From positions 1-49,711 of the IMG/VR virus record IMGVR_UViG_3300021957_000060: DNA of 49,711 nucleotides, one strand, 5' to 3'. Positions 22,214-37,915 of this stretch are shown one piece after another; the first letter of the stretch is position 1, and every line of letters starts with the position of its first letter. This stretch comes from a virus. A program made the position numbers and the translations under genes. The notes below the pieces were generated by a model. That model saw nothing but the letters and a program-made list of their open reading frames with translations, ran no database searches and was not told where the DNA came from.

Positions 22214-22424
22214 AGAAGGCTGTTAGCTCACGCTCAAGGTAGTCGTGCATCTTCTCTAGCTTGGGTTTAGCGTCACGGATAATCTTACGCACGAGCATCA
22301 GCTCATCACCCTTAAACACTTCATGTAGTCGGTCTTCGGGGAGACCACCCATCTCAGTTAGGATGGCCCCCGAATGATTGACAATGATTTTAAACGATAG
22401 TATATTAGCTTCCTTTGCTTTCAT
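22203..22424 (-). CDS. Small protein of unknown function, last gene of leftward block
   Basis: 73 aa with a strong Shine-Dalgarno (GGAGATATAC before ATG) 10 nt after the reductase stop. Charged helical C-terminal half (KIIRDAKPKLEKMHDYLEREL). Not recognised. Confidence 0.72.
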   Translation of the reverse strand: MKAKEANILSFKIIVNHSGAILTEMGGLPEDRLHEVFKGDELMLVRKIIRDAKPKLEKMHDYLERELTAFSTT

Positions 22425-32442: not shown

Positions 32443-32687
32443 TCTTTAAGCTTGTCTTGTTTCTTAAACATCTGTCCTAGCTTTTCTATTTGGCTCACCA
32501 GTTTATAATCTGAGAGCAGGTTAATCATCACAGTAACATCGGCTGACTCCTGTAGTAAGTTATCTAAATGTTTTTGTTCTTTGCCAAACCTCAGAAGCTT
32601 GCTGCAAACCATCGCTAGTTCGCAGCACTCCTCCATAGTTATAACAAGAAGCTCTTGTTCTTGCGGGGTTAGTTCGTTGTTTAACAT
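32424..32687 (-). CDS. Second MazG-like (all-alpha NTP pyrophosphatase) protein
   Basis: 87 aa. TMEECCELAMVCSKLLRF gives E19, E20 and E23; LLQESADVTVMINLL gives E47 and D50: the EExxE ... ExxD metal site of all-alpha NTP pyrophosphatases. Shorter than typical MazG. One-base overlap with the DUF932 stop. Confidence 0.72.
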   Translation of the reverse strand: MLNNELTPQEQELLVITMEECCELAMVCSKLLRFGKEQKHLDNLLQESADVTVMINLLSDYKLVSQIEKLGQMFKKQDKLKEWSSLY

Positions 32688-33607
32688 TACGCCACCTTTG
32701 AGAAGTGATGTTGGACAACAGCCTGTCGAGTGTTCTGTGTTGCAGCTATATTAACTATAGCATCTCGACGTTGTGCTGTTGCATGAGTAGACCAGTCGGT
32801 CATAGCATTATAAAATGCCCAGCGATTAGCACCTAAACGTCTCTTGTATTTATGCCAAGCAGCATAGATGTATTCAAGTGCTGGATTAGTTCTAGGCATC
32901 TCACCCATGATAGCCTCAGGGGAAGATGGTGGTCTAGAGTTTATAATCTTTTGAGCTGAAGAAATCTTCAAAGCTTCTACAATCTCTTGGAATGCCATGC
33001 TGTCTGTCATGGGCTGAGCACTCCACTCTGACCAGAGTTCACGTTGGTTCTCGAAAACATCTAGAGCCTTGGTGATAACTCTTGAGCCTACTTCAATGTC
33101 TAGGTTTCGGGTATGCTTAGCTCTGAACACTGCAACCTCACCGCCAACAAAGACTTGTAGATTTGTACAAGCTTGTTGAATAGCTGCTGCACTAATCATG
33201 AAGGGCCAAGTCCCATCAAAGCTTGACACTGCAAGCAGTCCAAGGGATGCAGTGTCACCGTCTGGAGTATTATAAGTATGAGCAGGTAGCTTATATTGTA
33301 CAAAGGTTCTGGAGCCATTGTGAGAAGTTCTGATAGTCTCTCTGATGCCGTCAACATTAAGACCTGAACGCTCGATAATATTACGGGTAACATCTATCAT
33401 CTTCTTGGGAGCCACTGGCTTATAGCTATGACCATGTACACCTAACTCTTGAGCTGTATCTGTACGATAGATAATAGACTTGGAGCTTTCATAAGCATCT
33501 AAATAAATTAAAGGTGCTGTAGCTATATCAAAATCTGCTGAGCCGTAGCCACCCTCTCGGATGGCTTGAAGTGCTGAGTTGTTTGGAAACATTTGCATGA
33601 TAGTCAT
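32687..33607 (-). CDS. DUF932 phage/plasmid-type protein
   Basis: 306 aa. Characteristic stretch LGVHGHSYKPVAPKKMIDVT ... GSRTFVQYKLP ... DGTWPFMISAAAIQQACTN ... VFRAKHTRNLDI, as in DUF932 proteins found on phages and plasmids. Function unknown; some members lie near anti-defence or recombination genes. Start overlaps the previous stop (TAATG) with AAGGAG 10 nt upstream. Confidence 0.8.
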   Translation of the reverse strand: MTIMQMFPNNSALQAIREGGYGSADFDIATAPLIYLDAYESSKSIIYRTDTAQELGVHGHSYKPVAPKKMIDVTRNIIERSGLNVDGIRETIRTSHNGSRTFVQYKLPAHTYNTPDGDTASLGLLAVSSFDGTWPFMISAAAIQQACTNLQVFVGGEVAVFRAKHTRNLDIEVGSRVITKALDVFENQRELWSEWSAQPMTDSMAFQEIVEALKISSAQKIINSRPPSSPEAIMGEMPRTNPALEYIYAAWHKYKRRLGANRWAFYNAMTDWSTHATAQRRDAIVNIAATQNTRQAVVQHHFSKVA

Positions 33608-33864
33608 TATGCTTGTACTCCTTCGATGCCATTAATATCTTTGATGTTCTTGAAGCTAATGCTTCGAGACTGTTTGTGCTGTACATAGAAAGCCCACTTA
33701 TAACAGTGGAAGATATGAAAACACTCTCCTTTGCTAACCTCGAAACGATTCTTGATGCTCCGCTGTCGTACAATAAAAGACTTACCGAAGACAGTACCGT
33801 TTTTCTTGCCGCTAAATGCCAAAGAGTGTGTAGATTTTGCGATTAAGTTGAATAAAGTTTCCAT
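33607..33864 (-). CDS. Small basic protein, unknown function
   Basis: 85 aa, rich in Lys, Ser and Phe (FGKSFIVRQRSIKNRFEVSK). First gene downstream of a 177-nt gap that holds a promoter on the other strand, tandem repeats and a long hairpin. The ribosome binding site is weak. Codon pattern is plausible but the family is not recognised. Confidence 0.6.
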   Translation of the reverse strand: METLFNLIAKSTHSLAFSGKKNGTVFGKSFIVRQRSIKNRFEVSKGECFHIFHCYKWAFYVQHKQSRSISFKNIKDINGIEGVQA

Positions 33865-33881
33865 AATTTTAATGCCTATTT

Positions 33882-33917
33882 GAATGTATATTAGAATGTA
33901 TATTAGAATGTATATTT
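33882..33917. repeat. Three tandem 12-bp repeats
   Basis: GAATGTATATTA occurs at 33882, 33894 and (last base T) 33906, head to tail, in the gap between 33864 and 34042. AT-rich iteron-like array; may bind a protein or arise by slippage. Confidence 0.85.
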
Positions 33918-33944
33918 ATTTAAAAGTAAAGCGGTTTTTTTTAC

Positions 33945-33973
33945 TTGACACCGCCACCTAAGTGTGGTACAAT
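33945..33973 (+). promoter_or_regulatory. Sigma70-type promoter pointing rightward, against the early operon
   Basis: -35 TTGACA (33945-33950), 17-bp spacer, -10 TACAAT (33968-33973). The bases GTGGTACAAT are the same as at the SSB promoter. A start near 33980 would fall at the first bases of the hairpin 33975-34030, and the transcript would run antisense to the early genes. No plus-strand gene follows. Confidence 0.75.
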
Positions 33974-33974
33974 A

Positions 33975-34030
33975 ACTTAATGTCTTATAAGTTAGTTCGT
34001 AAGAACTTACTAACTTATAAGTCATTAAGT
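33975..34030. repeat. Long inverted repeat (hairpin) with 12-nt loop TCGTAAGAACTT
   Basis: Two 22-nt arms (33975-33996 and 34009-34030) pair with one mismatch around the loop TCGTAAGAACTT. The same loop and adjoining stem bases, 26 nt in all, recur in the hairpin at 35419. No T-run follows on either strand, so a simple intrinsic terminator is unlikely. Confidence 0.9.
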
Positions 34031-34041
34031 AATTGAGTATA

Positions 34042-34215
34042 TTAATTATCATTGATGCAGATATTAAATACTCTAGTAGCTAGGTCATCTAGCATCTCAA
34101 GCTCTTCCTCTGTTGGTTCAAAAGCAGTGTCATATTTCAACTGCTCTGTAGTTATTGTTAAGTCTTTTAGAATGTTAAAAAAATCTAGTTTGTTTTGTGT
34201 TAGTTTGTAAGCCAT
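34042..34215 (-). CDS. Small acidic early protein
   Basis: 57 aa, AYKLTQNKLDFFNILKDLTI with an acidic second half (FEPTEEELEMLDDLA). The ATG overlaps the previous stop (TAATG). Unrecognised. Confidence 0.62.
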   Translation of the reverse strand: MAYKLTQNKLDFFNILKDLTITTEQLKYDTAFEPTEEELEMLDDLATRVFNICINDN

Positions 34216-35418: not shown

Positions 35419-35464
35419 TGTACTTATTAGTTAGTTCGTAAGAACTTACTAACTAATAAGTACA
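35419..35464. repeat. Perfect 17-bp inverted repeat with the same 12-nt loop
   Basis: Arms 35419-35435 and 35448-35464 are perfect complements around the loop TCGTAAGAACTT, identical to the loop at 33975-34030. It lies between the stop of the gene at 35472 and the Shine-Dalgarno of the gene starting at 35403. Confidence 0.93.
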
Positions 35465-37130: not shown

Positions 37131-37134
37131 TATA

Positions 37135-37202
37135 GTATTCCTTATTTATTAAGTTAAAAAGTTCATTCTGAACTTCTTTTTAACTTAATAAATAAGGAAT
37201 AC
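37135..37202. repeat. 68-nt inverted repeat containing the Shine-Dalgarno of the first early gene
   Basis: Outer 25 bp pair perfectly, then a 3-nt bulge and a further 6 bp (AGTTCA/TGAACT) around a 3-nt loop. On the leftward transcript the 3' arm ends in AAGGAATAC four bases before the ATG at 37130, so folding would hide the ribosome binding site. Confidence 0.92.
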
Positions 37203-37205
37203 TTT

Positions 37206-37246
37206 TTAGTATCTCTATAACCTTTTATAGGTTATAGAGATACTAA
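37206..37246. repeat. Perfect 17-bp inverted repeat
   Basis: Arms 37206-37222 and 37230-37246 are exact complements (TTAGTATCTCTATAACC and its reverse), loop of 7 nt. Three bases from the preceding hairpin. No T-run on either side, so not an obvious terminator. Confidence 0.93.
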
Positions 37247-37256
37247 GTCGACCTTT

Positions 37257-37563
37257 AAGACTTTTAAAGTCTTTACCGTGCGGCATTCCCTATCGGGAAT
37301 TTCCTGTAGGCGATAGAATCTTAGGAGACTTTAAAAGTCTCAAGGGAGGTTGATTAGTCGTAGACTAAAAAGCTTGTAAGTCGTTGAAATGCTTGGAAGT
37401 CTCTGGAGTAAACCTAAAGGTTTAAAAAAGCTTCAAAGCCTCCCTAGTTTTGTAAACTAGAAAGCTAGTCACCAACTCTAAGACTTTTAAAGTCTTCAAA
37501 GGGGTGCGGGCGTTAAGATTCTATAGAATCTATGGAGATTTTAAAGACTCTCTGGAGTCTTTA
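37257..37563. repeat. Cluster of short palindromes, three sharing AGACTTTWAAAGTCT
   Basis: In 307 nt: 37257-37273, 37325-37341 and 37480-37496 (all with AGACTTTWAAAGTCT), 37285-37300 (ATTCCC/GGGAAT), 37354-37368 (TTAGTC/GACTAA), 37410-37423 (AAACC/GGTTT), 37444-37460 (CTAGTTT/AAACTAG), 37516-37531 (AGATTCTATAGAATCT, perfect) and 37542-37563 (TAAAGACTC/GAGTCTTTA). Each could be a dimer binding site in DNA or a small stem in RNA. Confidence 0.88.
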
Positions 37564-37702
37564 GGGGGTGGGCAAGCTGCCATGGGGGGGGTACTGGGAT
37601 ATATATACAATCATATACATTTTATGGAGATATGCCATGTAAACCAGATAGTGCCGCAGCTTTAAAGGCTTTAAAGGGAGGGGCAAGGTTTGGGAAGTCG
37701 GG
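37564..37702 (+). other. Two G-rich tracts with quadruplex-type spacing
   Basis: Tract 1: G runs at 37564-37568, 37570-37572, 37584-37591 and 37596-37598. Tract 2: 37676-37678, 37680-37683, 37692-37694 and 37700-37702. Unusual in an AT-rich genome. Formation of quadruplexes is only a possibility. Confidence 0.6.
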
Positions 37703-37769
37703 CGGCTTCCAAGGGCTTTAAAGGCAGGTGCAGTATACATATGCTATAACCCCGGTGGGCTTAATATCT

Positions 37770-37798
37770 ATTATACCCGTAGAATAAGCATCTGTCAA
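37770..37798 (-). promoter_or_regulatory. Consensus sigma70 promoter for the leftward early block
   Basis: Minus strand: TTGACA (37793-37798), 17-bp spacer, TATAAT (37770-37775), a perfect consensus, with TACGGG directly before the -10. AT-rich upstream sequence to about 37816. Expected start near 37763, giving a leader of about 630 nt before the first early gene. Confidence 0.92.
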
Positions 37799-37886: not shown

Positions 37887-37915
37887 TTGACAAGACTCAA
37901 TATTACGGGTATACT
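37887..37915 (+). promoter_or_regulatory. Sigma70 promoter for the rightward packaging and virion block
   Basis: TTGACA (37887-37892), 17-bp spacer, TATACT (37910-37915). It shares CTTGACA and TACGGGTATA with the leftward promoter. Expected start near 37922, 29 nt before the small terminase ATG. Confidence 0.9.

Follow-up and report, generated by a model that had tools for sequence, protein, structure and literature searches.

The plus-strand promoter Pas, TTGACA-17-TACAAT at positions 33945-33973, is on comparative evidence a genuine, selectively maintained sigma70-type promoter, and it lies where the small early genes give way to the DUF932/replication block in an uncultured marine phage. 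The complete record of this phage (49,711 bases) was analysed and is referred to here as the window. By analogy with phage lambda, we propose that Pas acts by interference, opposing the early polymerase, and that the hairpin overlapping it is a distinct element of the minus-strand mRNA. We give this reading a probability of roughly one in two.

TerL of the window phage is 67% identical to that of Pelagibacter phage HTVC115P, the nearest sequences being those of HTVC115P, HTVC103P and HTVC104P (63-67%). Since its terminase is closest to these Pelagibacter phages, the window phage was placed with the HMO-2011-type phages; the gene order, including that of SSB, primase and polymerase, likewise matches this type. 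One study describes phages of the HMO-2011 type as dominant and widely distributed in the ocean (PMC9038755). How these phages regulate their genes has hardly been studied. The early genes are encoded on the minus strand and follow a TTGACA-17-TATAAT promoter that matches the consensus at 12 of 12 positions (37798-37770) and is opposed by Pas, while the late genes are encoded on the plus strand and follow a promoter at 37887-37915, upstream of the terminase small subunit gene (TerS, 37951). Among the large genes of the downstream block, the minus-strand gene for the DUF932 protein (32687-33607; PF06067, E 1.1e-18) comes first, followed by an SSB-like gene, a primase-helicase and a DNA polymerase. 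A DUF932 homologue was not found in any cultured HMO-2011-type phage, so that none of these can serve as a bench system. Pas is separated from the DUF932 gene by an 85-aa ORF (33607-33864, minus strand) that is kept in the window's group, and on its other side lies a 57-aa early gene (34042-34215, minus strand), the 3′ end of which is opposite the predicted antisense RNA.

Pas consists of a -35 hexamer at 33945-33950, a -10 hexamer at 33968-33973 and a 17-nt spacer ending in TGTGG, an extended -10. The hexamers match the consensus at 11 of 12 positions and, judged from the spacing to the -10, transcription would start at about 33980. Five promoters with at least 11 of 12 matches were detected on the two strands of the window, the others being located at 37798 (minus), 37887 (plus), 22378 (plus) and 26660 (minus). 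As dinucleotide shuffles yielded 1.2 ± 1.0 such promoters, the consensus match of Pas alone is only suggestive. It had been proposed from the sequence alone that this promoter serves no plus-strand gene, and this was borne out: no plus-strand gene was found for 4 kb downstream of Pas, the first being TerS. The possibility that Pas is itself a plus-strand late promoter was rejected; the late genes have their own promoter at 37887, and Pas is therefore not needed to reach them. We also rejected a leaderless frame of 18 codons, MSYKLVRKNLLTYKSLSN, which starts exactly at 33980, its ATG being missing in four relatives (L023, L028, L148 and L167). No strict intrinsic terminator was found on the plus strand between 33980 and 37800, and a loose scan downstream of Pas returned two weak candidates only. 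The antisense RNA would thus lack a defined end, unlike OOP of phage lambda, and a defined short antisense RNA from Pas is not supported by the sequence.

The comparative evidence for Pas is much stronger than its consensus match in the window alone. Relatives of the downstream DUF932 gene were collected, and 38 were kept of which the 480 upstream bases were less than 85% alike. A promoter pointing away from DUF932, and thus opposing the early operon as the sequence-only reading had it for the window, was present with at least 10 of 12 matches in 35 of the 38 relatives (6.35 in shuffles) and with at least 11 of 12 matches in 29 (0.45 in shuffles). Pas was missing from three relatives, and two of these loci (L038 and L149) may have been mis-sliced. 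In the window's group Pas is located 288-419 nt upstream of DUF932, behind the 85-aa ORF, and in more distant phages the antisense promoter is usually found 29-94 nt upstream. When ten promoters of the window's group were compared, the hexamers were 93% identical, as opposed to 42% for the spacer and 33% for its first 12 bases. Such conservation of the hexamers relative to the start of the spacer is a signature of selection on the promoter.

A sense promoter directed towards DUF932 was also enriched among the relatives, with at least 10 of 12 matches in 20 of 38 and at least 11 of 12 matches in 13 of 38. In several relatives its -35 sits 13-36 bp from the Pas -35, a back-to-back TTTACT-17-TATAAT promoter is present in L003, L006 and L007, and in L025, L051, L221, L224 and L242 a symmetric ATTATAAT is common to both directions. 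The window retains a degenerate site, TTTACT-17-TCTAAT (33902-33930, minus strand), which matches the position of the sense promoter in close relatives. Here the sense -10 has changed to TCTAAT, inside three 12-bp repeats, and Pas is still near-consensus. These direct repeats, GAATGTATATTA at 33877-33911, stand in place of the sense -10 region of the close relatives. Pas belongs to a promoter pair; in many relatives its partner, the sense promoter, stands back-to-back with Pas or uses the same -10.

The hairpin at Pas is formed by an inverted repeat at 33970-34035 with arms of 27 nt (33970-33996 and 34009-34035) that are 93% complementary, and it begins inside the Pas -10 (CAAT). Its RNA fold has an energy of -20.6 kcal/mol (z = -7.3), which none of 200 shuffles equalled. 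The 22-bp stem-loop at the start of the transcript, as read earlier from the sequence alone, is hence real as a hairpin, although those 22 bp are the inner part of the 27-bp repeat. An intrinsic terminator at this position was rejected: the stem is A+T-rich and lacks a U tract, and it was not listed as terminator-like on either strand. On the minus strand, the orientation of the family and of the early mRNA, the hairpin carries an invariant 12-nt apical loop, AAGTTCTTACGA, at 33997-34008. The window contains one further family hairpin, at 35419-35464 and also on the minus strand, with a 17-bp perfect stem and its loop at 35436-35447; this copy is located just upstream of the ribosome-binding site of a 202-aa gene and is not accompanied by an antisense promoter. 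The arm sequence of the Pas hairpin recurs exactly in 25 viral contigs, and the hairpin sequence is nearly invariant across the window's group. Promoter and hairpin had been presented as one unit, a promoter firing straight into a hairpin, which did not hold in general. In most relatives (L025, L043, L053, L167 and others) the promoter persists in the absence of the family hairpin, L026, L037, L043 and L167 having another hairpin or none, and most of the hairpins lack an antisense promoter, which among 91 family hairpins was seen only at DUF932-proximal copies and in one weak case. From their distribution across these sequences, the two elements meet at this site and neither requires the other.

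A search by loop alone revealed that RAGUUCUUACGA caps unrelated but complementary stems in many uncultured marine phages. Three or more additional Watson-Crick pairs flanked the searched letters in 87 of 106 distinct contexts, compared with 1 of 45 for the reversed pattern. Because this reversed control also matched, in 55 stretches, raw pattern counts are not evidence, and it is the flanking stems that are. In an alignment of 35 distinct hairpins, which were preselected for having a stem so that 87 of 106 remains the unbiased figure, the covariation score was 0.765 (0.166 when shuffled), and 14 of 16 pairs had changed on both sides; the covariation collapsed when the partner was slid by one column. 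The loop was almost invariant even with two loop mismatches allowed. On the minus strand, RNAfold and RNAalifold placed G-C and U-A pairs inside the loop and left over RA and GA, which may form tandem sheared purine pairs. Among 21 whole records, 18 contained family copies (46 in total; none for the reversed control), all on one strand per genome and clustered within a few kb in most. The genes flanking the hairpins mostly run in the same direction as these, and an ORF strand test scored 38 of 60 as sense, with exceptions; the stem pairs themselves (G-U in 6 of 955, A-C in 3) were too thin to decide the strand. Since the loop, which is asymmetric and invariant, has the orientation of the minus-strand mRNA in the window, and likewise follows the mRNA in most other phages, the hairpin more likely acts in the sense transcript, and judging from this orientation the functional strand is probably the minus strand.

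Neither the window nor five carriers matched any Rfam 15 family at the curated (gathering) threshold, BLAST against phage records returned only chance-level hits for the hairpin and no clear match, the literature contained no relevant hit for its sequence, and in bacterial genomes seven exact 18-mers were found, none with a comparable stem. The hairpin is thus like the Rfam families in its conserved structure with compensatory changes, but unlike them has no match in that collection. It also resembles the RNase III hairpins of the T7 early genes, as long intergenic stems occur in an early polycistronic mRNA at several places per genome. It differs from these in that its loop is nearly invariant across unrelated stems; to our knowledge, T7 RNase III sites show no such invariant loop. 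On balance we lean, by a slight margin, to the view that the hairpin is an undescribed phage regulatory element, in which a 12-nt loop (probably sheared purine pairs, G-C, U-A and a UCUU tetraloop) caps freely varying stems, which occurs one to six times per genome on a single strand, as a rule with its copies close together in the early region, in several marine phage groups, which would be read by a shared RNA-binding or RNA-cleaving factor, and through which an antisense promoter fires in one clade. The hairpin family appears to be undescribed and the more novel half of the finding, Pas being a further case of an already known kind of regulator, the antisense promoter. With its exact 12-base loop, the family would offer a means of tracing the factor by which it is read, for which in vitro RNA suffices and a cultured phage is not required. 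In a 54.5-kb phage, six such hairpins lie within about 3 kb, four of them with the same CTCTTTGCAGT stem (L280, 8910-11970; record G001, 50627-53681). The variant loops GAGTTCTAACGA and GACTTCTTACGA were encountered on perfect stems at L288 10176, L303 1621 and 1884, and L331 10308, which suggests from the sequences that the family is wider than the searched pattern.

For Pas, regulatory antisense RNA or polymerase interference, as put forward earlier from the sequence alone, remains the leading candidate function. Leftward-moving polymerase that started at the early promoter (37798) would be opposed by Pas, through collision and/or an antisense RNA that covers the preceding gene at its 3′ end. 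Its activity would limit early read-through into the replication block and so tune early versus replication expression, and the hairpin loop would act in the minus-strand mRNA, as a candidate site for RNA processing or for the binding of a protein in the gaps between early genes. The closest described analogue appears to be lambda pO, and we infer the same role for Pas. The lambda promoter, between cII and O, converges with pR at the start codon of the replication gene O and lowers pR transcription; its loss harms replication, and OOP is also antisense to cII (PMC3985674). Like pO, Pas opposes an early operon where the block of replication genes starts, has no coding gene, and would start in or near an intergenic gap, overlapping the preceding gene at its 3′ end. 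Unlike pO/OOP, it has no terminator defining a short RNA, no homology and no known cII-like target, it is usually paired with a sense promoter, and in the window's group its -10 is overlapped by a hairpin. Because Pas shares both address and direction with pO, interference with early read-through is favoured, whether or not an antisense RNA takes part. An antisense promoter maintained where the early and replication genes meet would carry the logic of lambda pO over to phages of abundant marine bacteria.

Conceivably, Pas could simply be the DUF932 sense promoter working in the other direction, made bidirectional by symmetry of the -10, and its antisense RNA functionless. Bidirectional promoters of this design (symmetric -10) have been described for bacteria, are common, often give noncoding antisense RNA and can be non-functional by-products (PMC10268837), and the five relatives in which ATTATAAT serves both directions form a class that shares the arrangement reported by Warman et al. 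(2021). Promoters of this type share a symmetric -10 and have starts 7-25 bp apart on opposite strands, whereas the window and most of its group have two separate sites. In that group and in several others, Pas has a TTGACA, a -10 and an extended -10 to itself, all retained while the spacer became random; moreover, the sense promoter of the window has decayed and Pas is intact. We therefore consider this explanation unlikely, though it ranks ahead of the following ones. Transcription from Pas might instead prime or activate a replication origin, through an R-loop or transcriptional activation. The lambda and T7 origins are transcription-linked, Pas adjoins the replication block, the DNA downstream is A+T-rich, and the three direct repeats lie at 33877-33911. 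These repeats are, however, missing in close relatives, by which an iteron origin was rejected, no clear GC-skew switch was observed at the Pas site, and the idea of OOP as a primer in lambda has itself been dropped (PMC3985674), which makes such an origin improbable.

We hold to be equally improbable that the 5′ hairpin of the Pas antisense RNA pairs with the early mRNA hairpins, at its own site and at 35419-35464, in long duplexes for RNase III. The plus-strand RNA is fully complementary to the hairpin of its own site and 93% so over 44 nt to the second copy, and the near invariance of the sequence across the group would fit such pairing; against it, many relatives have Pas without the family hairpin, and most hairpin copies are without Pas. 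Least probable is that the palindrome acts as DNA, as an operator or cruciform controlling Pas, and that the family represents protein-bound DNA and not an RNA. The scarcity of G-U stem pairs, by which complementarity is strict on both strands, would agree with this, but the stems are unrelated with only the loop constant, the loop is asymmetric, and the copies keep to one strand per genome. Interference by Pas, combined with a separate hairpin element in the mRNA, is thus the reading that we prefer.

A few further elements were noted. At 22378-22406 another plus-strand promoter with 11 of 12 matches, TTGACAATGATTTTAAACGATAGTATATT, is antisense and aimed into the 3′ end of a 627-aa minus-strand gene, which is probably a ribonucleotide reductase. 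The early leader (37240-37750, about 500 nt) has no clear gene and is rich in CTTTAAAG and GACTTTTAAAGTC palindromes, and in distant relatives similar CTTTTAAGG-type palindromes are located directly where the antisense transcript is predicted to start; a phage regulator might bind palindromes of these types. Two adjoining hairpins (37134-37203 and 37206-37246) with perfect stems of 28 and 18 bp and other loops immediately precede the first early gene, and these hairpins display two-sided, pairing-preserving changes in L007, L011 and L036.
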